Shown here piece by piece: positions 50,016-61,776 of a DNA stretch of 64,000 nt. Made by a program: the position numbers and the translations under genes. The stretch covers positions 3,162,001 to 3,226,000 of the forward strand of contig NZ_LT629703.1 in the NCBI RefSeq assembly GCF_900103365.1, written 5' to 3'. Under the pieces are notes generated by a model. The model was not told where the DNA came from and searched no databases. It saw only the letters and a list, made by a program, of their open reading frames with translations. Numbering within the stretch: position 1 is the stretch's first letter; every line of letters begins with the position of its first letter. This DNA comes from Afipia sp. GAS231 (lineage in GTDB: Bacteria > Pseudomonadota > Alphaproteobacteria > Rhizobiales > Xanthobacteraceae).

Positions 50016-50978
50016 ATGACGACGCCGCTCGATCCCGTTATCGCCCAAATCATTCCGCTGTTGCCGCTACGAGATCCTGACAACATGACGCCGCAGAGCG
50101 CCCGCGACGCGCTCAGCGCGCTGGCCGCCGCGCGCGCGGCGGTGCCGCCGCCACCGGTGACGAGCGCGGAAGCGATCGAGGTAAAGGGCGCCGCCGGACC
50201 GCTCGCGGCGCGGCTCTATCGTAACTCAACCGGCAAATCGCCGACCGTGGTGTTCTTTCATGGCGGCGGCTGGGTCGCCGGCGATCTCGCAACCCATGAC
50301 CGGCAGGCGCGACTGCTGGCGATCGAGACCGGCGCGGTCGTGATCTCCGTCGACTACCGCCGCCCGCCCGAAGTGCGCTTTCCCGGCGCGTTCGAGGATG
50401 CCTTTGCTGCGACCAAGGACGTCATCGCACGCATCGCCGAGTTCGGCGGCGATGCTGCGCGCGTCGGCGTTTCCGGCGACAGCGCCGGTGGCAATCTGGC
50501 GGCGGCCACCGCGATTGCCTGCCGCGACGCCGGCATCAAACTCGCGGGACAGTTGCTGGTCTATCCCGTCACCGACGTCGTCGGAAATTTCGCCGACACG
50601 AAAGAAAACGCGCGCTTTCCATCGCGTAACGAGAACGCCGAAGGTTATTTTCTGTCACGCGCGGTGATGGAATGGTTTTGCGGCCATTATCTCGCCAATC
50701 GGTCTGACGGTACCGACTGGCGTGTCTCGCCGCTGCGCGCGAAAAACCTCGCAGGCCTCGCGCCCGCCGTCGTGACCACGGCGTGGTTCGATCCCCTGCG
50801 CGACGAAGGCAAGGCCTATGCGGATGCACTCGCCGCCGCCGGCGTCCCGACAAAGTATCATCATGGCGCTGGTCTGATTCACGGCTATTTCGGCCTCGGC
50901 GAAGCCTCCGAGACCGCCAAGCGTGAGGCACAGGCTGCACGCGCCGATTTCAAGACGTTGCTGGACAAGGGCGCGTAG
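50016..50978 (+). CDS. Alpha/beta hydrolase, hormone-sensitive-lipase (HSL) family esterase
   Basis: The 320-residue enzyme has the oxyanion motif HGGG at 82-85 and the nucleophile elbow GDSAGG with Ser156. Asp259 in FDPLRDEG and His289 in LIHGYF complete the triad, as in HSL/Est esterases. It hydrolyses short-chain carboxyl esters in the cytoplasm. It is 63 bp downstream of the Baeyer-Villiger monooxygenase on the same strand, and a role in hydrolysing that enzyme's ester or lactone product is inferred. Confidence 0.92.
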   Translation: MTTPLDPVIAQIIPLLPLRDPDNMTPQSARDALSALAAARAAVPPPPVTSAEAIEVKGAAGPLAARLYRNSTGKSPTVVFFHGGGWVAGDLATHDRQARLLAIETGAVVISVDYRRPPEVRFPGAFEDAFAATKDVIARIAEFGGDAARVGVSGDSAGGNLAAATAIACRDAGIKLAGQLLVYPVTDVVGNFADTKENARFPSRNENAEGYFLSRAVMEWFCGHYLANRSDGTDWRVSPLRAKNLAGLAPAVVTTAWFDPLRDEGKAYADALAAAGVPTKYHHGAGLIHGYFGLGEASETAKREAQAARADFKTLLDKGA

Positions 50979-51056: not shown

Positions 51057-52253
51057 ATGAATCAATCCACTGGTCCACTCGCCGGCATCCAGGTTCTGGA
51101 TCTCACCAGCGTGCTGTTCGGCCCTTACGCGGCGCAGATGCTGGGCGATTGGGGCGCCGACGTCATCAAGGTCGAGCCGCTGACGGGAGATACCTGGCGA
51201 TATACCGGCCAGTTTCGTAACCGCGGCATGAGCGGACAGTTCATGGCGGTCAACAGGAGCAAACGCAGCCTGGCATTGGATCTGAAGCATCCCGATGGGA
51301 AGGCGACGTTGCAGCGGCTGATCGCCAAAGCCGACGTGCTGCTGTCCAACATCCGCCCGGCGGCGTTGGCGCGGCTCGGCTTCGGTTACGAGGATTGCCA
51401 CAAGCTCAATCCGCGGCTGGTCTATGCCGCCGCGACCGGCTTCGGGCAGGACGGCCCGTGGGCCGCCCGTCCGGCCTTCGATGAGATCATCCAGGCGAGC
51501 TCCGGCTTCGCATCCTCCATGGGCAGCGACGAGGAGCCCGCTTTCGTTCCGAGTCTCGTCGGCGACAAGATCTGCGGATTGGCGATGGCCGGCGCGATAT
51601 CGGCGGCGCTGGTACACCGCGAGCGTACCGGCAAAGGGCAGATGGTCGAGATCCCCATGCTCGAGACCATCGCCGCCTTTAACAGCATCGAAATGCTCGG
51701 CGGTCATGCCTTCGTTCCGCCGATCGGACCAGCCGGCTACAAGCGCATGAAGGAGCGGCGTCCCGTGCGCACCAGGGACGGCTGGTTGACGATGCTGCCC
51801 TACTCCGGCGACAACTGGTGCGAATTTTTCGAAGCCGTCGGGCATCCCGAATGTATCGAAGACTTTGCGGTCCGCGATCCCGTCGCGCGCGGCCAGAATA
51901 TCGACCGCATCTACAACAAAATGGCCGAGATCGCACTGACCCGCACCACGGCCGAATGGGAAGAGTTGTTGCTGCGGATCGATGTGCCGCATGCCGCCTT
52001 TGCAAAAGTCACCGAGATCGCAGAGCAACCGCACCTCAAGGCTGTCGAGATGTTCCCGACGCTTGACCATCCGACCGAAGGAGCGATCAGGCAGGCGCGT
52101 CCCTCTGCCCGGTTTTCGGAAAGTCCCGCCGCCATTCAGTGCATGGCGCCGCGGCTCGGCGAACACTCGCAGGCGGTCTTGCGGGAAGCCGGCCTCAGCG
52201 ATGACGACATCGCTTCGCTGGTCGAACGGAAGGTGGTTGGGATTTCGAGCTAG
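51057..52253 (+). CDS. CaiB/BaiF-type (class III) CoA transferase
   Basis: The 398-residue protein opens GPLAGIQVLDLTSVLFGPYAAQMLGD, typical of class III CoA transferases. It has the catalytic Asp170 in LVGDKICG and the small-domain PFQP-like region replaced by TMLPYSGDNWCEFFEAVGHPE. It moves CoA between carboxylic acids. It lies 78 bp after the esterase and may belong to the same ketone-degradation transcript. It is the last gene before the predicted island boundary. Confidence 0.92.
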   Translation: MNQSTGPLAGIQVLDLTSVLFGPYAAQMLGDWGADVIKVEPLTGDTWRYTGQFRNRGMSGQFMAVNRSKRSLALDLKHPDGKATLQRLIAKADVLLSNIRPAALARLGFGYEDCHKLNPRLVYAAATGFGQDGPWAARPAFDEIIQASSGFASSMGSDEEPAFVPSLVGDKICGLAMAGAISAALVHRERTGKGQMVEIPMLETIAAFNSIEMLGGHAFVPPIGPAGYKRMKERRPVRTRDGWLTMLPYSGDNWCEFFEAVGHPECIEDFAVRDPVARGQNIDRIYNKMAEIALTRTTAEWEELLLRIDVPHAAFAKVTEIAEQPHLKAVEMFPTLDHPTEGAIRQARPSARFSESPAAIQCMAPRLGEHSQAVLREAGLSDDDIASLVERKVVGISS

Positions 52254-52292
52254 AACTGGATCGCCGGCTTATTGGGCTTGCACGATCGGAAA

Positions 52293-52317
52293 TGGCGATC
52301 CCGGCATGGCTCGAACA
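52293..52317 (-). repeat. 3' fragment of tRNA-Arg(CCT): candidate attachment-site copy
   Basis: The 25 bases match the last 25 nt of the tRNA-Arg gene at 60058-60134, including the encoded CCA, with one mismatch (52309 versus 60074). The adjoining CGGAAA is also shared (52287-52292 and 60051-60056). The copy is in direct orientation relative to the intact tRNA and has no other tRNA parts attached. Confidence 0.75.
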
Positions 52318-52408
52318 AGCCGCGGTCACACCGGAACGCCTTCGAGGGAAAGCGATCCGGCGTGGATACCGGTCTTGTGCGAAGATACCGCCTCAACCGA
52401 TCAGCGCA

Positions 52409-54265
52409 TCAATGACGACCATGATCGTCGTCATCGTCTCTGGAGGCCGAGACGACGGCCCCTGTCTTCTCGTCAAGCACCAGCATGCGTGGGCCGCCTT
52501 CGTCGCGGTTGTCAAAGTCGAACATGTTGTTGAGCGGTCCGGCGATAGTATCGAACGAGCCGCCGCGCTGGATGCGCTGACCGTCGAGCCAGTTGTCCTC
52601 AATGAAGCGAAGCACCGAGGTCTGGTCGGTCAAGGTGTGATCGACGTGATTGCGCTTCGCAAAGGGCGACACCACCAACAGCGGCATCCGCGTTCCGTAA
52701 CCGCAACGTCCCCACGCCGGCTTCCCGGAGTTACCGTTGAGCGGCGTGGTCAAGACCGGCTCGTCCTGCTGGAAGCCGTTGCTCGTCTGGCAGACGCCGG
52801 GCCCATTGAGCGTATCCACCGCCGGGTTGAACGAAGGATTGGCGATCGGCGGCATTTGGTGGTCATACCAACCATCGGAGTCGTCATAGAGGATGATGAC
52901 CGCGGTTTCCGACCAATCCGGGCTCTTCTGCAGGGCGTTGATGACCCGCACCAGGAAATGCTGCTCGTCGATCGGGTCCGAATATCCGGCATGACCATCT
53001 TCGAACGCCGCCGCCTTCAGAAAACTCACGGCCGGCAGCTTGTGCGCGTTCAGCGCGGCGAAGAAGTCGTTGACGTCATAGTTGTGGTTGGCCGGATCCG
53101 GCGTGTTGGTACCCGGGATCAGGCTATGGCCGATGGCCTCGACCGAACTCGGGCGGGCGTGGGTCGGATTCCGGGTCGACGCATAGTACTGGAACCAGGC
53201 GTGGTGCGGAATGTAATCCACCGACGTGAACGCGGGTGTGCCCGGTGCGGTCGGGTTGGTGTGCCGCAAGCAGCCGGTGGTGCCATCGGCGTTGACGACC
53301 GTCAGGTCGAAACCACCCATGAAAGAACCCCAGGTGATGCCTTTGGCATTGAGGAGATCGCCGATGTTCTTGCCGGCCATCGTGACCTGGTCGATAGCAG
53401 GATTCGAGCAGACGTCCTGCAGCGGATCACCGTCGCCGATCTCGGTGATGTTGTCGGCAGTCTTGGCTGCGTCGCCGAACGCCTCGTGGGTTTTGAACTT
53501 CAGCGTCTGGTTCGTGGGATCCGCGGGATCGAACACGTTCTTGGTGGCCGCAAAACCGTTGGTCTGGCCCGAGATCAGGTTGATCGCGCCCGGCGTCGAT
53601 GGGCCGAATTGCGTGGTGTAGTTGTTGTCGTTCAAGGAGAAATGCTGGGCGTAGTTCCACATCGCGGTGACGGTGTTGCCGTCGTAATAGCCCATCACCA
53701 GTGACTTGCCGGTGCCGGTCGGCGTCCCTCCGGATCCGACGAAGACAGGGAAGCCGTCCATGCGGCCGTTGTCGTACGCGCTCTCCTCCGGGCTTTCGTT
53801 GTGGCCCTGATCCGAGGTCAGCGCCTGGGCGGGCGACAGCCGGAACGGATTCGACGCGTTGCTGCCGTTCTTGTTGGCGACGCCGCCGGTCGTCGGGGGG
53901 ACCGGATTGACCGGATTGGTGGCGACGCTGTTCGGATTGTTGTGGAGCAGATCGACACCCGTGAGCGGCTTGAAATGGTGTTCCACATCGAGCGGGTTGA
54001 CGAGATTGTTGACTCTTCGGGTGCGCGGCGACGACTTGAACGGCGTCTCGCCGGACAGATTGAGGGCGTTCGGATAGGTTCCGAAATAATGATCGAACGA
54101 AACGTTTTCCTGGAAGATCACGACGACATGCTTGATCGGCGTTGCGGTGGGTACACGATGAAAGTCGTCGGAATCTCGGCCGTGCCGATCCTCCGCTGCG
54201 GCGCCTGCACCCGCGATCGCGAGGGCCAGGACGGAAACCAGACCTAGGGCTGTTGGCAAACGCAT
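52409..54265 (-). CDS. Secreted phosphoesterase family protein (acid phosphatase AcpA/phospholipase C-like)
   Basis: Starting at the ATG at 54265, preceded by AGGAGG, gives 618 residues. The signal peptide ends AGAAAEDR. The mature chain opens KHVVVIFQENVSFDHYFGTYP, the hallmark of the phosphoesterase family PF04185 shared by phospholipase C and AcpA. The Glu-Asn pair coordinates metal, and later segments ILYDDSDGWYDHQ and GTRMPLLVVSPFAK are also family motifs. The tail is rich in Asp and His. It should be periplasmic or exported and cleave phosphomonoesters or phospholipids. Confidence 0.88.
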   Translation of the reverse strand: MRLPTALGLVSVLALAIAGAGAAAEDRHGRDSDDFHRVPTATPIKHVVVIFQENVSFDHYFGTYPNALNLSGETPFKSSPRTRRVNNLVNPLDVEHHFKPLTGVDLLHNNPNSVATNPVNPVPPTTGGVANKNGSNASNPFRLSPAQALTSDQGHNESPEESAYDNGRMDGFPVFVGSGGTPTGTGKSLVMGYYDGNTVTAMWNYAQHFSLNDNNYTTQFGPSTPGAINLISGQTNGFAATKNVFDPADPTNQTLKFKTHEAFGDAAKTADNITEIGDGDPLQDVCSNPAIDQVTMAGKNIGDLLNAKGITWGSFMGGFDLTVVNADGTTGCLRHTNPTAPGTPAFTSVDYIPHHAWFQYYASTRNPTHARPSSVEAIGHSLIPGTNTPDPANHNYDVNDFFAALNAHKLPAVSFLKAAAFEDGHAGYSDPIDEQHFLVRVINALQKSPDWSETAVIILYDDSDGWYDHQMPPIANPSFNPAVDTLNGPGVCQTSNGFQQDEPVLTTPLNGNSGKPAWGRCGYGTRMPLLVVSPFAKRNHVDHTLTDQTSVLRFIEDNWLDGQRIQRGGSFDTIAGPLNNMFDFDNRDEGGPRMLVLDEKTGAVVSASRDDDDDHGRH

Positions 54266-54457
54266 CAAGAATGCCTCCTAATGAACGAGTTGAATGGGAG
54301 ATGGTGTGAGCTGCGAGTGCCGACCAAGCAATCGCTGTGCGGAACTTTTCAGAGCCGCGTCACAGCCAAAAGAAGCATTTGTGACGTCTTGTTGAAGAAC
54401 TCGCGAATGGGCTTGCACGAAAGATGCCCGGCATGTCGGCTCAAATCCCGTGAATTT

Positions 54458-55000
54458 CTACCGGGCTAGCCCACGTTCGTATCGATTGGCTTCCGCCGCT
54501 GTCATCGCCGGCGCGGGCAGTCTGCTGGACGGTGCACGGGCGGGCACCGACACAGCCACGGCTTTTCCGTCGGGTTTGTTTTGGCGCATCACCAGAACGT
54601 CAATGGATTGAGGCGTGATTTTCATCGCAAAATCGTAACCGTCCAGCACGCGCACCGCGACCCGCCGCAATGGTCCATTGAATGTTCCGGTTATGCGCGT
54701 GTCGAGTGCATCGTTGCTGCGATAGCGCAGATCGAAATTCGCTTGCAGCGCGTCCAATACCTCTCGCAGCGTAGCGTCCCTGGCCTCGATATGGACCGCC
54801 TCGGGTTGCCCGCCAACCTGGACTTGGGCGTGCGCCGCTTTGCCGCCTGCAGCGAGAAGCAAGCCCGATGCGAGCGCAAGCGTATGCAGACGGCGCAGAA
54901 GTGCCGGCGATCGTTGCCGCGCGGCACGGCCCACGTGGCGTCGCAGAAACCCGCCGGCGGGGCCGGCGGGGTCGCTATCTTCGTTCGAGCTGTGCCGCAC
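54458..55000 (-). CDS. Secreted STN (secretin/TonB short N-terminal)-domain protein
   Basis: The 180-residue protein has a positively charged leader, a hydrophobic segment (LHTLALASGLLLAAGGKAAHAQ) and one STN-type domain at about 70-135 (IEARDATLREVLDALQANFDLRYR through GYDFAMKI). A Pro/Ala-rich tail follows. STN domains normally sit at the start of secretins, TonB receptors or FecA-like proteins; here the domain is free-standing. It starts five bases after the stop of the upstream phosphoesterase, so the two are co-transcribed. It may bind a signal or help secretion of the phosphoesterases, but no partner is known. Confidence 0.75.
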   Translation of the reverse strand: MRHSSNEDSDPAGPAGGFLRRHVGRAARQRSPALLRRLHTLALASGLLLAAGGKAAHAQVQVGGQPEAVHIEARDATLREVLDALQANFDLRYRSNDALDTRITGTFNGPLRRVAVRVLDGYDFAMKITPQSIDVLVMRQNKPDGKAVAVSVPARAPSSRLPAPAMTAAEANRYERGLAR

Positions 55001-55005
55001 GCTGT

Positions 55006-57207
55006 TCAGTGACGCCCATCGTCGCGATGGTCGTGGGCAAGGTCCGCTACCACATCGATGATCGCGCGGGCGCGGCGCACCAACTGATCCTCCTGGCGCT
55101 CGTTGATCGGTTGATTGCCAAAGGCGGCTGCATCCAACAGCAGCTTGATCTCGGCCGCCAGCGCGTCGCGTTGACCGGTAATGTCGGCAATCTTTGCGAG
55201 GAATTTACCGTAAGCGGTATCGTCGCTCAGGATTGACCGGTTCGCGTAACGGAGACTGTTCAGCCCCACCGATCCTAGCGGCGCGTTGAGTTGCTTGTAG
55301 GCCTGCGCCAGTTCCAGGAAGTTCTCGTTGCGCCGCAACGCTCGCGGCACGGCGCGATCATCGAGGAACTCGATCAGCACCCGGCCATCATGGGTGTAGT
55401 CGTCCTTCAGGCCGGCCAGCGCGATCATGGTCGGGCGAAGGTCGGTGTGGTCCGAGAACACATCGTCGTTGCGGCCGAAGCGGTTGACGCCGGGCCCGAC
55501 CATGCCCATCCAGGTGCGCGTGATGTCCTTCTGCACGTCGCCATGGTTCCAGGCGAAGCCGGGAGGTTCGCTGACGCAGGCAGGAGCCTGCGAGCAATCC
55601 TTGCCCTGGCCGGTCGACGCCGACGACGTCGTGTTGAAGTAATCGGGATTGCCGAACATGGTAAAGCTCGGCGAGCGCGCAGGATTCGACGTGATCATGT
55701 GCAGCAGGCCCATCTCCGCGCGATCCGCCAGAAAAGCATTGAGCTTTTCGACCCGGCCGGTGATCGGGTTCGTCACCTGCAGTGCGTCGACATCGTGCTC
55801 CATGGTCCGCGTCAGCGCATCCGTCGGCGCCGGGTTGCCGTGAATGTAGAAGGTCGGAGCATCGTCGAAGTGGATATCAAAGGGCGTCGTATTGCCCCGC
55901 TGCGTCAACAGCAGCCGGTCGAGGAAGGTGCTGATTTCGCCGATCTTCGCATAGGTACAGGGCAGGTGAATGCCATCGCAATTGGCCGGGCTCGGTGCGC
56001 CGCCGACGAAATGATCATTCTCGTCTGCGGTCACGACGAACAAGGTATTGTCCTTGGTGATGCCGTGAGCGGCAAGGCGGGCGAAGAACTTGCCGAAGGC
56101 GATGTCATAGGTCTTCAGCTGCGCAACGTATTCCGCTTCACCGGCACCGAAAGCGTGCGCCGGACCCGGCAGGTTGGTCGCAGGATCGAGCGGCACCGGA
56201 TTGCGATCATGGCCGTCGGCCAGGTAGACGTAGACGACGGGGATGCCGGCTTCGAGCATCGTCGCGGCATAGCCGAGCGACTGCTTGGCCGTCGGGCTGA
56301 AGACGTTGGGGAAGCCGGGACGGCCGTAGGCGTCGGCAATGACCGCGCCGTCGGTATCCTTGACGTTGCCGCTGCCGTCACAACCGGCCGGTGCCGCCGT
56401 GCACAGCGCCGGCGCCACATTCACGTTGCCGAACAGCGCCTTGAAACCGGCATAGCCGCCCGGCTCGTCCGGCAGCGCATCGGCGCGCGCGTGGCCGTTG
56501 TTGCAGAGCTGGCTGTCCGGCGCACAATGCACGGCAATGCCGAGATAGTCGGTGTTGGGCGCCTGCCGCGCGGGGGCATTGGCCGGTGTGCGCGGCAAAG
56601 CAAGCGCCGCCGAAACCGCGACGTCCTCGGGCGAGCCGACACCGAATACGGTGCGGACGTCAGCCGGCAGGCTCTCAAATTCCATATTGGCAATCGAGAA
56701 GGCGCCGACATCGCAACCGGCACGGGTAAACGGCGCCCACGGCGCCGGAAAAGTCTTGCCGTTCTCATTGACCAGTTCCGGCTTGCCGTCCGCGCTAAGC
56801 GCGGTCCAGTACAGGAACGAGCTGGAGAAGCCGACGGAACCGTCATTGCGGAAAAAGCCATAGCTGTTCGCCACCGGCACGCCCATGCGGTCGCCGTATG
56901 CTCCCGTCAGCACGGTAAGGATGTCGGTCGCGGTGTGCGAAATCAGCGGCGTGTGATGATTGCCGCTCACGACGCCGTTGTTCTGCATGAAGTTGAGCAG
57001 ATTGGGCATTTGTTCGAGGTCTGATGGCACGTTGGGGTTGTCGCGCCGCAGATGGACGTTGTCGAACTGGATATGCACGACATGCTTGATGCGATTGTCC
57101 GCGGACTGCAGCCCGCACGCGGCCTGGGCAGTCGCCGGTCCGCCGACGAGTAGCCCTGCGCTAAGCAGCAACAGAATTGACGCGCCGAAAGTGCGTGAAT
57201 GACGCAT
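55006..57207 (-). CDS. Secreted alkaline-phosphatase-superfamily phosphoesterase
   Basis: The 733-residue protein has a signal peptide (MRHSRTFGASILLLLSAGLL, ending TAQAA). A mature domain of the alkaline phosphatase superfamily follows. VHIQFDNVHLRRDNPNVPSD supplies the first metal ligands, ISHTATDILTVLTG likely carries the nucleophile Thr, and VVTADENDHF and FSDHTDLRPTMIAL supply the remaining Asp/His ligands. Many cysteines suggest disulfides. It is distinct in length and sequence from the other phosphoesterase at 52409. Substrate unknown. It is the first gene of the STN operon. Confidence 0.85.
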   Translation of the reverse strand: MRHSRTFGASILLLLSAGLLVGGPATAQAACGLQSADNRIKHVVHIQFDNVHLRRDNPNVPSDLEQMPNLLNFMQNNGVVSGNHHTPLISHTATDILTVLTGAYGDRMGVPVANSYGFFRNDGSVGFSSSFLYWTALSADGKPELVNENGKTFPAPWAPFTRAGCDVGAFSIANMEFESLPADVRTVFGVGSPEDVAVSAALALPRTPANAPARQAPNTDYLGIAVHCAPDSQLCNNGHARADALPDEPGGYAGFKALFGNVNVAPALCTAAPAGCDGSGNVKDTDGAVIADAYGRPGFPNVFSPTAKQSLGYAATMLEAGIPVVYVYLADGHDRNPVPLDPATNLPGPAHAFGAGEAEYVAQLKTYDIAFGKFFARLAAHGITKDNTLFVVTADENDHFVGGAPSPANCDGIHLPCTYAKIGEISTFLDRLLLTQRGNTTPFDIHFDDAPTFYIHGNPAPTDALTRTMEHDVDALQVTNPITGRVEKLNAFLADRAEMGLLHMITSNPARSPSFTMFGNPDYFNTTSSASTGQGKDCSQAPACVSEPPGFAWNHGDVQKDITRTWMGMVGPGVNRFGRNDDVFSDHTDLRPTMIALAGLKDDYTHDGRVLIEFLDDRAVPRALRRNENFLELAQAYKQLNAPLGSVGLNSLRYANRSILSDDTAYGKFLAKIADITGQRDALAAEIKLLLDAAAFGNQPINERQEDQLVRRARAIIDVVADLAHDHRDDGRH

Positions 57208-57425
57208 GGCTCTCTCCTCAGTCTGTCAAATCATTGGGAAGCTGGTGTGCGTAGAGAAGCTAACGGCCTCTCATGACAATCGCTTGAAATGCAATTGACC
57301 GCTGCGCGACTGTGCGATGACACCAGCGCTGGCCATCGCCCCGCGGCATCCAGTTGGAGGCGGGAAGAACACAATCGTGCCAAGTGACCGTGCCCGGCGA
57401 GCTGCAAGGCTTGCGGCCGGCCGCA

Positions 57426-58088
57426 TCATGGCTTCTTGACGAGCTTCAGCGAACGGCCGGTTCGCGCAGGTCGTTGTCGCACAGGCGCGGCTTGCGCCTG
57501 TGGCGGCTGCAGGAAGCGGACCAGCATCTTCTTCAGATGCTCCGCGTGCTGCTTGACGTCGACCTTCGAGTTGCGGACCGTCAGGGCGCGCGCACCGTCG
57601 ACGACGGCGATCAGGATGTCGGCCGTCGCTTCGACATCGAGGCCCGGATCGACACGCCCCTGCTCTTGCCCGCGGCGCAGGAAGTCGGCCCACAGGCCGC
57701 GGAATGCCTCGCTGTGCCGCGCGAATAGCTTTGCGAATTCCGGATTTCGGGCGGCTTCGGCCAGTGAATCCAGATTGAGAACCTGGGCGGGCCGGGACCG
57801 CAGGCTGTATTCCTCGACGTCCGCGAGCAGCGCCCCCATCACGTCGGTAGAGGACAGGATCGCCTCGAACCGCTCGGCCGAACGCTTCAGGCCAAAATCG
57901 ATCATCGCTTCGATGATCGCCTCCTTGCTCGAGAAGTAGTGATAGAGGTGGCCCGGGCTGATCCCGGCTTCGACGCAGATGTCCGTCGTGCTGGCGCCGC
58001 GGAAGCCATCCTTGGTAAAGCAGCGTATCGCCGCCCCGAGGATTTCGAGCCGCTTCTGCTCGTGCTTGACGGGGTCGACTTTTCTCAA
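57426..58088 (-). CDS. TetR-family transcriptional regulator
   Basis: A TTG at 58088 with GGAG eight bases upstream gives 220 residues. It has an N-terminal TetR helix-turn-helix (RLEILGAAIRCFTKDGFRGAS, then ISPGHLYHYFSSKEAIIEAM) and a ligand-binding C-terminal domain (AefR-like). The frame is open to a TTG at 58166 inside the candidate operator. It lies between the phosphoesterase operon and the divergent lipoprotein operon, either of which it could control. The basic C-terminal tail (RQRPARTGRSLKLVKKP) is unusual. Confidence 0.88.
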   Translation of the reverse strand: MRKVDPVKHEQKRLEILGAAIRCFTKDGFRGASTTDICVEAGISPGHLYHYFSSKEAIIEAMIDFGLKRSAERFEAILSSTDVMGALLADVEEYSLRSRPAQVLNLDSLAEAARNPEFAKLFARHSEAFRGLWADFLRRGQEQGRVDPGLDVEATADILIAVVDGARALTVRNSKVDVKQHAEHLKKMLVRFLQPPQAQAAPVRQRPARTGRSLKLVKKP

Positions 58089-58151
58089 CGCAGCATCTCC
58101 AGCCCTCGCGGCAAGGCTATTTAACACAATGGCCCGGTTCGCAGAACCAAA

Positions 58152-58173
58152 AAATAGAGAGATCAATCTATTT
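58152..58173. promoter_or_regulatory. Candidate TetR operator
   Basis: AAATAGA and TCTATTT are 7-bp perfect inverted arms separated by 8 bp in an AT-rich stretch between the TetR gene and the divergent lipoprotein operon. A TTGACA at 58179 could be a -35 element for the rightward operon. Site and spacing fit autoregulation by TetR. Confidence 0.5.
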
Positions 58174-58252
58174 ATTGTTGACAGTGGATGGAAGCCGTGA
58201 GATTTATAGTTAGAGCTATCTATCTAATAAATTAACGCCTGGCGATGGACCC

Positions 58253-59143
58253 ATGCCCCTGAGATGGACGGCCTTGTTACCGCTTGCGCTGGCAACCGCG
58301 GGGTGCGCAACCGCGCCGCTCGAGCGGGCCGGCTCGCTCCGAAGCTATGATCGACTGTCGGATGCGAACGGACTGGTCACGCGCTCGCAGATCCGGGCCA
58401 ACAAGAAGGATCTGCTCGCCGCGAAGACAGTCCGGATCGTGCCCACCGTCTTTCCTGCGCGCGCCGACGTCCCGCTGAGCGAAAAGGAGCGCAGCCTGGT
58501 GGCGAACGCCGTCAGCCGCGAACTCTGCCTTGCACTGAGCGAGCGGTTTCGGATCGTCTCCAGCGATGGCGACGCCGACCTGACGGTGCAGGCGACCGTG
58601 ACCCATGCAACACCGACCGATCCGGTCGCGGCCGGCGCTTCCAAAGCAGCCTCGGTCATCAAGACTGTTGCGCTTCCAGCGGTGCCCGTGCCGGTACCGC
58701 GGCTGCCTGTCGGATTGGGCAGCCTGTCGGTGGAAGCGGAGGCGCGCGATTTCGCCGGCTTTCAGAAGGCCGCGATGGTCTGGGCTCGCGGCGCCAATGT
58801 CGTCACCAACTCGCCGCGGGTCGCCAACGAAGGCGACGCCTACGACCTCGCATCGGACTTCGGGACGGATTTTTCCAAGCTGGTGTCGACGGGGGAATCG
58901 CCGTTCGGCGGCGTGCCGTCGCTGCCTCCGATCGACAGCCTTCCGGTGCGGCTCGGCGGCGCGCCGAAATACGTCGCGTGCGAGGCGTTCGGCCGATTTC
59001 CGGGCTTGACCGGCCTTGCCGGCCAAGGGCTCGGCCTGCCGCCCGGCTGGACCGATTCCGGCGTCAAGGCTTACGACGTCAAGGTCCGGCCGATCGAACC
59101 TTCGACACCCGAAACGAATTCAGAACGGGCGACCGCGCAATGA
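58253..59143 (+). CDS. DUF3313-family lipoprotein
   Basis: The 296-residue protein has a lipoprotein signal with Cys18 in LATAGCATAP. The rest matches DUF3313 (PF11769): YDRLSDANGL followed by PLSEKERSLVANAVSRELCLALSERFRIV, DADLTVQATVTH and SVEAEARDFAGFQKAAMVWAR. Such lipoproteins are outer-membrane anchored with unknown role. The stop overlaps the next start by four bases (ATGA). It heads a three-gene operon ended by a hairpin at 59938. Confidence 0.85.
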   Translation: MPLRWTALLPLALATAGCATAPLERAGSLRSYDRLSDANGLVTRSQIRANKKDLLAAKTVRIVPTVFPARADVPLSEKERSLVANAVSRELCLALSERFRIVSSDGDADLTVQATVTHATPTDPVAAGASKAASVIKTVALPAVPVPVPRLPVGLGSLSVEAEARDFAGFQKAAMVWARGANVVTNSPRVANEGDAYDLASDFGTDFSKLVSTGESPFGGVPSLPPIDSLPVRLGGAPKYVACEAFGRFPGLTGLAGQGLGLPPGWTDSGVKAYDVKVRPIEPSTPETNSERATAQ

Positions 59144-59679
59144 AACGACTGGTGACGTATCTGCTGTTCACGACCCTGAAGCGCCTTCTCACCACGCTCA
59201 TCCTGCTGTCGGTGTCGGCTTACATGTCGGGATCGCGAGGGGCCGAGGCCTCCGCCGAAGGTATCTGGGAGCTGAGCGACGACGCCGGCAGACCTCAGGG
59301 CTGGTTCAAGATCGCGGAGCAGAACGGCACGTATGTCGGGCAGATCGTGCGGACGTTTCCAACGCCGGGAGAGAGACCGGAAGACACGCGCTGCGGAAAA
59401 TGTGAGGGCGAGCAGAAGGACGTACCGGTGTTGGGCCTCACCTTCATCAAGGGCATGAAACGCACCGGCCTCGCCTATGAAGGCGGGCGGATCCTCAATC
59501 CCCGCGACGGCGCCGAATATCGCGCGCGCATGGACCTGAGCGCCGACAGTCAGCGTCTCCAGGTGCGCGGCTATCTCGCCATCGAGATGCTCGGGCAGAC
59601 GCAGGTCTGGCATCGCGTACCGCCGTCTCCCGAAACCTCCAAACTGCTGGCGCGCCAGTTTGAAAACGCGGGCAAATAG
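59140..59679 (+). CDS. DUF2147-domain secreted protein
   Basis: The 179-residue protein has an N-terminal hydrophobic leader (LLFTTLKRLLTTLILLSVSAYM). It is followed by a DUF2147 domain (PF09917): GIWELSDDAGRPQGWFKI, then CGKCEGEQKDVPVLGLTFIKGMKR, GGRILNPRDGAEYRARMDL and LQVRGYL. Family members are periplasmic and linked to envelope or lipid functions without a defined activity. Translational coupling to the DUF3313 lipoprotein suggests that they act together. Confidence 0.85.
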   Translation: MKRLVTYLLFTTLKRLLTTLILLSVSAYMSGSRGAEASAEGIWELSDDAGRPQGWFKIAEQNGTYVGQIVRTFPTPGERPEDTRCGKCEGEQKDVPVLGLTFIKGMKRTGLAYEGGRILNPRDGAEYRARMDLSADSQRLQVRGYLAIEMLGQTQVWHRVPPSPETSKLLARQFENAGK

Positions 59680-59680
59680 C

Positions 59681-59941
59681 GTGCGCTCATCCGGACATCT
59701 CGATTTGACGCACGGACGCCAGCCAGGGCACGCGCGGCGCGGGACCGATGGCGCAGGTGCGCGGCGTCCGCCGCTGTTCGCCAGGGACGAGGCGACAAGG
59801 CCCGACGAGGCAGACCTGGACGTCACCACCGACGAGAAGGATTATGATTTCGTTCGGGAGCCCGGCTTCTGGATCGCAATCCTGCTCGGCTGTCTGCCGG
59901 TTGTCGCCAGTTATATGTATATTCTGTTCATGGGCGACTAA
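59681..59941 (+). CDS. Small single-pass membrane protein
   Basis: A GTG one base after the DUF2147 stop gives 86 residues. The N-terminus is Arg/Gly-rich, followed by an acidic stretch (DEADLDVTTDEKDYDF) and a C-terminal membrane helix FWIAILLGCLPVVASYMYIL ending FMGD. Its TAA stop lies inside the stem of the following terminator, supporting a real 3' end of the operon. The start is uncertain and the function unknown. Confidence 0.6.
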   Translation: MRSSGHLDLTHGRQPGHARRGTDGAGARRPPLFARDEATRPDEADLDVTTDEKDYDFVREPGFWIAILLGCLPVVASYMYILFMGD

Positions 59942-59964
59942 GGCGCGCGACGAGCGCGCCTTAG
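59938..59964 (+). terminator. Terminator-like hairpin overlapping a stop codon
   Basis: CTAAGGCGCGC and GCGCGCCTTAG form a perfect 11-bp stem around a GACGA loop. The left arm contains the TAA stop of the small membrane protein gene. The following sequence is only weakly T-rich. It may also terminate the leftward transcript from the tRNA-Arg gene. Confidence 0.65.
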
Positions 59965-60057
59965 TCGCTCTTGATATGGATACGCATCCAAAGCCTTACG
60001 CCGCGTGTGATCGCAGCGGGGATGTCCGCATTTACGGGTTTCTTGCATCACGGAAAT

Positions 60058-60134
60058 TGGCGATCCCGGCATGACTCGAACATGCGACCTACGGTTTAGG
60101 AAACCGTCGCTCTATCCGGCTGAGCTACGGGACC
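60058..60134 (-). tRNA. tRNA-Arg (CCT anticodon)
   Basis: The minus strand folds into a complete cloverleaf of 77 nt including encoded CCA: acceptor GGTCCCG/CGGGATC, D-stem GCTC/GAGC, anticodon stem ACGGT/ACCGT with loop TTCCTAA (anticodon CCT), variable loop AGGTC, T-stem GCATG/CATGC with loop TTCGAGT. It reads the AGG arginine codon. Its last 25 nt are duplicated at 52293. Confidence 0.97.
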
Positions 60135-60262
60135 GCGAACCCGGCGAGAAGCGCAGGTATCGCGTTTCCATACCAGAGCTCCCCTGGAATCGCTACCCCG
60201 GACCGTCGGCCGAAAGTCGCTCATGACGGGCTCGACCACCCATCCTGCGGGCACGTTCGACG

Positions 60263-60772
60263 CTACTTCCCAACCACCGTCACCGAAGCGAAAATCTTGG
60301 TCAGCGCGGCGGCGTGCTTGTCGAAGGCGGCCTGTGGGCCCCATTGCGCGAGCTGGATGAAGCGGTTGTTGCCGATGGCGACAGCACGCACCTTGACCGT
60401 TTGGGACTGGCCGCTATCGGCGACCGCCGAATACACCCATTCCGTCGAGTCGATGCCGGCGAAAGCGCTGGTGCTTTCCTTGACGCCGGCCTGATCGATC
60501 TTCAGCCCGTTGCGGGTGAGCGCCTTCAGCGCCTCGGCCTTGACCGCAGCGGCGTCGGCCTCCTTTTCGACGGTGAGCCAGAAGAACACCGCGCGATCCG
60601 GCGAAGCCGTATCGATGGTGTCATCGGATACGTTGGGATTCCAAGTCTCCAGTACCTCGATCGTAACAGCCTTTGCACCTTCTTCGGGAATCTTGAAGAC
60701 GCCGGCCTGCGCCAGGCCCGCCAGAGCAACGGTCAGGAAACCCGTCAAGCCGATCGCAAACAGAAGCCGCAT
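60263..60772 (-). CDS. Secreted protein of unknown function
   Basis: The 169-residue protein has a signal peptide (MRLLFAIGLTGFLTVALAG, ending AQAG). A mature domain of mixed alpha/beta character follows (KAVTIEVLETWNPN, ADAAAVKAEALKALTRNG, KVRAVAIGNNRFIQLAQWGP), ending FASVTVVGK. It has no cysteines after the signal. I do not recognise a family with a known activity. It lies between the tRNA and a non-coding stretch. Confidence 0.75.
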   Translation of the reverse strand: MRLLFAIGLTGFLTVALAGLAQAGVFKIPEEGAKAVTIEVLETWNPNVSDDTIDTASPDRAVFFWLTVEKEADAAAVKAEALKALTRNGLKIDQAGVKESTSAFAGIDSTEWVYSAVADSGQSQTVKVRAVAIGNNRFIQLAQWGPQAAFDKHAAALTKIFASVTVVGK

Positions 60773-61173
60773 CGAAACATTCCCAGTGAAATTGCCAGAT
60801 CGAACTCGTATCCCGCCAGCCTGCCGGCGAACGCTGGCGCTTTAGCAGGACCGGCGTGCCATCGCCAAGCGCGCCCCTGCGCAAAGGACATTGACCGAAT
60901 GTTGCCACAATGTGGCATGGCTGCACCTTCCGCCGAAAGCAACGCCATCGGGCATCTGCCGCGGCACCCGCGGGGGCTGCATCTTTCGCCGTTGAATTTA
61001 CTCAGTAATTTTTGACGCGGCGACAATGTTATTCCACCGGTCACATCCGCGAAACATCCCTGCGGGAAAACAGGACGGTTCCGGGGTGACAAGCTCCGCC
61101 AAAATGATGACAATCGACTCAATCAAGTTCCCCCTTGCAAGTTCCGCGAGAATTCGACTGGAGAATACCGTCC
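60773..61173. other. 401-bp non-coding stretch
   Basis: This is the divergent spacer between two secreted-protein genes. It contains a short hairpin GCCAGC...GCTGGC near 60817 and an AT-richer segment at about 60990-61015. Short frames on both strands lack signals of coding. No RNA gene or strong promoter was recognised. Confidence 0.4.
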
Positions 61174-61776
61174 GTGATCGCCTCACGACCATCGGCGCTG
61201 TTTGTTGCCGCCATTGGAACCTTCGTCGTCCTGACACCGGTGCGCGCCCACGCGCAGTGGTGGCGCAGCGCGCCGGCCGATTTCGAGGCCTGCGCCGACG
61301 CGGCCGAGAAGGCCAAGACCAAGGAAGAGAAGACGTCGTCGCTCGCCGAGTGCAACGCCAAGTTCGCCGGCCGCCGCAAGCCCGGTGGCGGCTACACCTA
61401 TTACGATTTCATGCAGGACCGGACCTTCGACATCGCAGGTCCCAATCCGACGCCTGAAGAGCAGAAGAAAATCGACGAGCAGTACACCGTCTATCTCGAG
61501 CGGGAGCGGCGCAACAGCATTGCCGCGGCGCTGATGGCCAAGCAACAACAGCAGCAGGTGCAGCAGGTCTCGCTGCGGTCCGATCAGGAACCCGCGCGCA
61601 CGGAAACCGCAAAGGTACCGGTGCCGGTGGCGAGCCCGGTCAAACAGGCCGCACGTGTCAGAGCAGCCAACTGCGCCAGGAGTTCGTTCTCCTGCGACTG
61701 GCCGCGGCTCTCGGAGAGCATCAACGACCTGAAGAAGCTGTTCAGCTCGACGCCGAGCAAGCAGAAGAAGTCCTGA
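61174..61776 (+). CDS. Secreted Lys/Gln-rich protein of unknown function
   Basis: The GTG at 61174, with GGAG ten bases upstream, gives 200 residues. A signal peptide ends RAHAQ. The mature part has ADFEACADAAEKAKTKEEKTSSLAEC with paired cysteines, then GGGYTYYDFMQDRTFDIAGPNPTPEEQKKID. A Gln-rich stretch and a basic C-terminus follow. The YYDFMQDRTFDIAGPNPT segment recurs in bradyrhizobial hypothetical proteins. No function can be assigned. Confidence 0.75.
   Translation: MIASRPSALFVAAIGTFVVLTPVRAHAQWWRSAPADFEACADAAEKAKTKEEKTSSLAECNAKFAGRRKPGGGYTYYDFMQDRTFDIAGPNPTPEEQKKIDEQYTVYLERERRNSIAAALMAKQQQQQVQQVSLRSDQEPARTETAKVPVPVASPVKQAARVRAANCARSSFSCDWPRLSESINDLKKLFSSTPSKQKKS

Follow-up and report, generated by a model that had tools for sequence, protein, structure and literature searches.

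A segment bounded by copies of the tRNA-Arg(CCT) 3′ end and lacking an integrase in Afipia sp. GAS231: a probable remnant at a recurrent Bradyrhizobium integration site

Integrase-less, tRNA-bounded remnants are already known in Bradyrhizobium. In B. japonicum USDA6T, 15 tRNA-bounded islands of 2.9 to 100 kb were described in 2011, and five of them have no integrase listed, three of these being 2.9, 6.5 and 6.6 kb long (PMC3927601, Table 5). Cis-mobilizable elements (CIMEs) are defined as elements that have lost their integration and transfer genes and kept both attachment (att) sites, attL and attR (PMC5704250), and strain NK6 is described as carrying a bipartite symbiosis integrative and conjugative element (symICE) at a tRNA-Arg gene (PMC9174649). 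Here we analyse a further case, at tRNA-Arg(CCT), in a 64,000-nucleotide stretch of the Afipia sp. GAS231 genome (contig NZ_LT629703.1, positions 3,162,001 to 3,226,000), hereafter the window. An earlier note, made from this stretch alone, had proposed a tRNA-borne genomic island there. We conclude that the segment at 52318–60057 is very probably a horizontally acquired, integrase-less remnant, inserted at the 3′ end of tRNA-Arg(CCT), which is a recurrent integration site in Bradyrhizobium.

Like the window, the USDA6T islands have an intact tRNA gene at one end and a partial copy at the other, and some carry no integrase (PMC3927601). Unlike the window, none of the 15 tabulated islands is at trnR-CCT, and all 15 are said in that report to have a lower guanine-cytosine (GC) content, which is hardly true of our insert. 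The symICEs reported in PMC9174649 also use tRNA genes as attachment sites, including a tRNA-Arg. However, they are very large and conjugative. As in a CIME, in the sense of PMC5704250, there are att-like repeats at both ends of the window's segment and no integrase, and a probable older layer adjoins it, much as in tandem accretion. However, the distal repeat is cut to 25 bp, and no parent integrative and conjugative or integrative and mobilizable element (ICE or IME) was found. We found no paper on an integrase-bearing island at tRNA-CCT in Bradyrhizobium, though this is a weak negative as the notation varies.

The last 25 nucleotides of the tRNA-Arg(CCT) gene recur at the far end of the interval in direct orientation, with one mismatch (24/25), so that an intact tRNA gene stands at one end and a partial 3′ copy at the other. 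The 3′ end of the gene, which was placed by both ARAGORN and Rfam, points into the interval, as the earlier note had described. The next best sites for this 25-mer in the window match at 16/25 on the same strand and 17/25 on the opposite strand. With their flanks, the two copies align without gaps over 44 nucleotides and are 82% alike. The CGGAAA flank that had been reported as shared is present at both copies, but its alignment needs a one-base gap (CGGAAA-TGGCG versus CGGAAATTGGCG). A degenerate 24-nucleotide core, permitting up to three mismatches, was found at five sites in the whole 7.58-Mb single-contig genome, namely the tRNA itself (no mismatches), the copy at 52293 (one), a fragment at C1:1657730 (two) and two sites with the 3′ end of tRNA-Arg(TCT) (three). 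Thus, the repeat is not scattered over many unrelated positions.

The locus was compared across 131 tRNA-Arg(CCT) loci. These comprise the window and 130 relatives, presumably Bradyrhizobium, out of the 141 further genomes in which this tRNA was matched (142 in all). Of these loci, 23 had less than 14 kb of sequence on the 3′ side, and three of the 23 had less than 2 kb. The first conserved gene on the 3′ side was either an amidohydrolase or the orthologue of the hydrolase at 50016–50978. The hydrolase was located 20 to 84 bp from the tRNA 3′ end in nine loci, which represent empty sites, and at 0.84 to 14.9 kb in 14 further loci, including the window (9083 bp). The amidohydrolase was found at 116 to 144 bp in 22 loci and at 199 to 9233 bp in 41 more, and neither gene could be reached in the remaining 45. 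A site in G102 is filled and ends where the empty ones begin, with a perfect tRNA copy (25/25) at +7466 and the hydrolase at +7501. Taking at least 40% identity over half of the query as a match, none of the six named cargo genes (phosphoesterases PE1 and PE2, and the STN-like, TetR, DUF3313 and DUF2147 genes) was matched in the tRNA loci of the 130 relatives. The segment is therefore missing at this site in relatives, and its genes show no genus-wide synteny. On the 5′ side of the tRNA synteny was retained, as the orthologue of the gene at 61135–61776 was present in 82 of the 130 relatives, with mostly 5 kb examined there.

Copies of the tRNA 3′ end (at least 22/25) occurred in 10 of the 131 loci, 1.1 to 14 kb from the gene, all of them on the same strand and on its 3′ side. 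The scan, which covered 0.72 Mb of 5′-side and 1.82 Mb of 3′-side sequence, found no copy on the opposite strand at 19/25 or better and none on the 5′ side at 20/25 or better. Weaker matches (19/25) were found in four more loci, one of them on the 5′ side. In control scans, 25-mers from the tRNA 5′ end gave one extra copy and 655 random 25-mers gave three. Large islands were identified in four of the 47 relatives searched, all four finished genomes (G054, 211 kb; G078, 66 kb; G133, 44.5 kb; G056, 29.5 kb), and in each a PF00589 integrase lies some 1 kb away from one of the tRNA copies. The G054 integrase was confirmed by Pfam (60 bits). The distal copy in G054 has the hydrolase 0.6 kb beyond it, and those in G133 and G078 have the amidohydrolase at about 0.13 kb. 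Further copies lie 153 and 50 kb apart in G150 and G151, respectively. The G054 island shares with the window both the tRNA-Arg(CCT) and the hydrolase as backbone neighbour, but it is far longer, has its integrase 0.7 kb from the tRNA, and differs in T-stem type and in its proximal end.

Since empty and filled sites, same-side copies and integrase-bearing islands all occur at this gene in relatives, integration has recurred at the tRNA-Arg(CCT) locus, which is a hotspot with two or more backbones. Different inserts, of about 1 to 211 kb, have entered at this one tRNA gene in many members of a genus associated with soil and plants. The boundary that the earlier note drew from a single sequence is now backed by synteny, and neither of the two doubts raised with it, conserved synteny of the interval or matches at many unrelated sites, was borne out.

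As the earlier note had stated, no recombinase is encoded in the interval. Neither a PF00589 scan nor an integrase hidden Markov model (HMM) detected a tyrosine recombinase between 52.3 and 60.1 kb, and in the same set the HMM did recover the integrase of G054, a sequence absent from its seed set. Relaxase and conjugation genes were likewise missing from the seven open reading frames (ORFs) of the insert (Pfam, NCBIfam). In both respects the segment differs from an ICE or IME. With no integration or transfer genes and with a 25-bp direct repeat that is att-like in sequence, the segment resembles a CIME in architecture. In the same genome there were seven PF00589 matches (E ≤ 1e-5) among the matches listed, all outside the interval, the closest being 56 kb away on the right-hand side of the tRNA. 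The HMM gave no match in four further loci (L185, L186, L188 and L189), but these stop short of their known integrases. A regular expression for tyrosine recombinases was also tried; its matches were judged to be reading-frame noise, and BLAST and the HMM, both of which pick up the G054 integrase, were used instead. Small integrase-less segments such as this one are records of past transfer that methods based on integrases or on unusual GC content would overlook.

The boundary itself had to be moved. The CoA-transferase gene at 51057–52253, which had been taken as the gene that would lie beside the tRNA before insertion, was never adjacent to it in 265 genomes. Since the backbone neighbour is instead the hydrolase, the acquired region is about 9.1 kb. 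The 7.8-kb interval proposed in the earlier note is very probably acquired, but it is only a part of a region that reaches the hydrolase and probably holds at least two layers. Among the 130 relatives' loci, the CoA-transferase gene lies between hydrolase and tRNA only in G137. In the search of 265 genomes, G177 too was found to have it on the same side of the tRNA as in the window. The gap between tRNA and CoA transferase is 7.8 kb in the window, 13.6 kb in G137 and 16.5 kb in G177. In G137 the gap includes a module of 6.2 kb, bounded by repeats and encoding a sensor kinase and a metallophosphoesterase, and, adjoining the CoA transferase, a second block that we read as catabolic genes without a family scan. 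PE1 is absent (E ≤ 1e-60) from both G137 and G177. An older insertion that included the CoA transferase therefore probably preceded independent younger ones. The G033 CoA transferase stands on another contig, of 10 kb, and gives no distance to the tRNA.

Comparison of the tRNA copies and of the sequences following them (the tails) bears on how such segments may have entered. In five of 15 copy pairs (G137, G019, G033, G078 and the far copy in G056) the living tRNA and the displaced fragment have T-stems of different types, with both stem strands paired in the living gene; an element that brings along its own tRNA 3′ half would be expected to leave this pattern. Using 31 empty sites as reference, the tail of the distal copy matched an empty-site tail with a score of 20 to 36 in six of the 15 pairs (G033, G005, G043, G054, G133 and G078), whereas the tails after the living tRNAs scored only 7 to 11. 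Both copy flanks in the window resemble a sequence that stands beyond the tRNA in seven relatives and also, with a score of 14.5, at the middle one of the copies in the G056 array. It is suggestive that this motif could be the insert's own end. The 23-nucleotide motif was composed after the tails, including the window's, had been viewed, and its null rate of about 1 in 10,000 (20,000 random 40-mers) therefore overstates its weight. None of the seven relatives is among the 31 empty sites; in two the amidohydrolase lies 1.6 and 9.2 kb away, and in five no marker is in reach. One of those without a marker, L110, shares with L115 a gene that is 0.6 kb from the tRNA in L110 and 5.9 kb from it in L115. 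Since this gene sits close to the tRNA in L110 and markers are missing in five of the seven, the motif could also be the native tail of a third backbone.

Most likely, judging from integrase-bearing relatives, a tyrosine integrase recombined a copy of the tRNA 3′ end on an incoming element with the tRNA-Arg(CCT) gene, so that one end would keep an intact tRNA and the other a 25-bp fragment. Internal deletion would later have removed the integrase, together with any genes for transfer. What remains would be a packed, att-bounded cargo of two modules (PE1–STN–PE2 and TetR–DUF3313–DUF2147), with an older layer, of which the CoA-transferase gene would be the remains, parting the distal repeat from the backbone hydrolase.

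Several observations weigh against this reading. A joined-flank query (CoA transferase plus tRNA; E ≤ 1e-38) did not find the exact pre-insertion state in 265 genomes. No integrase remnant is present in the insert, so that entry driven by an integrase is deduced from relatives only. Just 25 bp are left of the tRNA in the window's distal copy; the sequence after this copy leads into the CoA-transferase gene and is unlike every empty-site tail (score 10). The GC content of the insert is 62.6% (0.626), compared with 0.634/0.644, and its tetranucleotide composition ranks sixth of 38 windows. Atypical composition, a common and not strictly defining trait of islands, is therefore lacking, and composition was dropped as a marker because neither measure singles the insert out. 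An exact copy at G054:4209146 lies off-site, on the opposite strand beside an integrase fragment, and off-site copies also occur at G056:2438143 and G095:5680695 and on other contigs in G012 and G214. Copies of the tRNA 3′ end in the genus are therefore no sure sign of an island at this gene, as some are remote from it or on different contigs.

The ordinary composition is also what a chance similarity within a conserved stretch of chromosome, with no insertion at all, would predict. This is scarcely credible, and we reject both a chance repeat and conserved synteny, given the specificity of the repeat (24/25 against 16–17/25 for the next best sites), the strand and side bias in 10 of 10 loci, the existence of empty sites and the cargo-free loci of relatives. 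Host-like GC content would also suit homologous recombination, without an integrase in this cell, from a donor that had the segment 3′ of its tRNA-Arg(CCT), with homology provided by the tRNA half and the flanks. The similar flanks beyond both copies and the near relatives of the cargo in other Bradyrhizobium agree with such an exchange. However, no donor with the cargo at the tRNA was found in the loci of the 130 relatives, and the question of origin would merely shift to the donor, so we regard this route as distinctly improbable.

A satellite-like element that never owned an integrase, with att-bounded cargo moved, in trans or in cis, by an integrase that a different element at this tRNA provides, is unlikely too, if less so. 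No integrase was detected in ten small repeat-bounded segments (BLAST, HMM; PF00589 among the matches listed), compared with all four large islands checked (Fisher p 0.001). In addition, 184 nucleotides at the tRNA-proximal end of the 7.4-kb integrase-less segment in G102 are 75.5% like sequence of the 211-kb integrase-bearing G054 island, and the packed insert in the window leaves scant space for integrase debris. However, the large islands and the small segments come from different searches, and shortness by itself predicts integrase loss, so the contrast is indecisive and fits loss after shrinkage as well as dependence on other elements. Excision and transfer of a satellite are only hypothetical, and the one integrase of this genome seen beside a tRNA-Arg is at tRNA-Arg(TCT), the others having been compared by position only. 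More speculatively, tRNA-Arg(CCT) in Bradyrhizobium might be a passive docking port, through which small integrase-free att-bounded cassettes circulate. Larger elements with the same ends would move these cassettes by their integrases, and at every passage the living tRNA would have its 3′ half exchanged; we consider this very doubtful. The small cassettes of relatives at this gene carry RND/MMPL transporters or a sensor kinase, and that of the window carries phosphoesterases.

The features of the locus are collected in Table 1. The gene list given in the earlier note was right for the two phosphoesterases, the TetR regulator and the DUF3313 and DUF2147 proteins, while the name STN has no backing from Pfam. 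PE1 is akin to acid phosphatase 2d1g and to phospholipases C, and PE2 matched no solved chain at E ≤ 0.1. The PE1–STN–PE2 module could plausibly release phosphate from organic esters, as judged from these family resemblances. Among named records, the closest to the cargo is that of B. erythrophlei GAS478 (L190), in which PE2, STN and PE1 are grouped in that order with 92, 57 and 91% identity, respectively; no tRNA was found within the 18 kb examined around this trio. PE2 was found in 14 of 146 genomes (E ≤ 1e-100), and at tRNA-Arg(CCT) only in the window, and the DUF3313 gene was found in 55 (E ≤ 1e-40), the own genome being counted in both cases. In the seven relatives with both genes, they are on separate contigs or megabases apart. 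Given this difference in spread and location, the cargo is probably a composite of PE1–STN–PE2 and TetR–DUF3313–DUF2147.

Table 1. Coordinates of features at the tRNA-Arg(CCT) locus (window positions) and of the integrases in the large islands of relatives
Feature	Position	Strand	Basis or remark
Alpha/beta-hydrolase (PF07859), backbone neighbour of the tRNA	50016..50978	+	Pfam; orthologues in relatives' loci
CoA-transferase family III gene, probable older insertion layer	51057..52253	+	Missing in 9 hydrolase-type empty sites; near the tRNA in G137 and G177
Flank of copy 2 beyond the tRNA end	52277..52292	-	Like the copy 1 flank, unlike the 31 empty-site tails (score 10)
Repeat copy 2, tRNA 3′-end fragment, att-like	52293..52317	-	Poor tRNA match beyond its 25 nucleotides (30/45)
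Inserted segment, 7.74 kb, ORF-packed, without integrase	52318..60057	.	ORFs, family scans, relatives' loci
PE1 phosphoesterase	52409..54268	-	PF04185; nearest solved relative acid phosphatase 2d1g
STN-like small protein	54458..55000	-	Name from the earlier note; no Pfam match
PE2, second putative phosphoesterase	55006..57207	-	PF01663 just below cut-off
TetR-family regulator	57426..58166	-	Pfam
DUF3313 protein	58253..59143	+	Pfam
DUF2147 protein	59140..59679	+	Pfam
Small ORF, 93 amino acids, without family	59660..59941	+	ORF list, Pfam
Copy 1 flank past the tRNA end, read as the end of the insert itself (suggestive)	60042..60057	-	Like the tRNA tails of 7 relatives
Repeat copy 1, 3′-terminal 25 nucleotides of the tRNA	60058..60082	-	24/25 with copy 2
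Intact tRNA-Arg(CCT), 3′ end the integration target	60058..60134	-	ARAGORN; Rfam RF00005, 65.1 bits
Large-island integrases	G054 5385516; G056 697850; G133 484902; G078 4330265		PF00589

The STN-like protein (54458–55000 versus L190:10214–10744) is just 57% identical to its B. erythrophlei counterpart, compared with 91–92% for the flanking PE1 and PE2, and may have diverged fast or been replaced locally. In G056, a tandem array at tRNA-Arg(CCT) (C1:669812–771551) has copies at +29.5 and +101.7 kb and PF00589 matches at 697850 and 718538. An integrase-like fragment (BLAST, HMM) in G103 (L139), at +9100 to +9561 from tRNA-Arg(CCT), is a possible remnant of a decayed island.

Elsewhere in the Afipia sp. 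GAS231 genome, a 16-kb segment at tRNA-Arg(TCT) (G000:C1:7402109–7418097; L176, L177) is bounded on one side by a partial tRNA copy, and 0.7 kb inward from this copy lies a phage-type integrase that is 40% identical to the G054 integrase at tRNA-Arg(CCT). The fragment at C1:1657728 (L003:1501–2912) is a degenerate tRNA-Arg(CCT)-like sequence extending from the anticodon arm to the 3′ end. It adjoins an Xre/MbcA/ParS antitoxin and RES-domain pair, with a PF00589 match 23 kb away, and ARAGORN detected no tRNA in the 40 kb around it. On the 5′ side of the tRNA the sequence close by (60135–60772) is variable: the 169-amino-acid gene at 60263–60772 has relatives in two of 79 other genomes, and in G137 an ORF of 534 amino acids lies between the counterpart of this gene and the tRNA.

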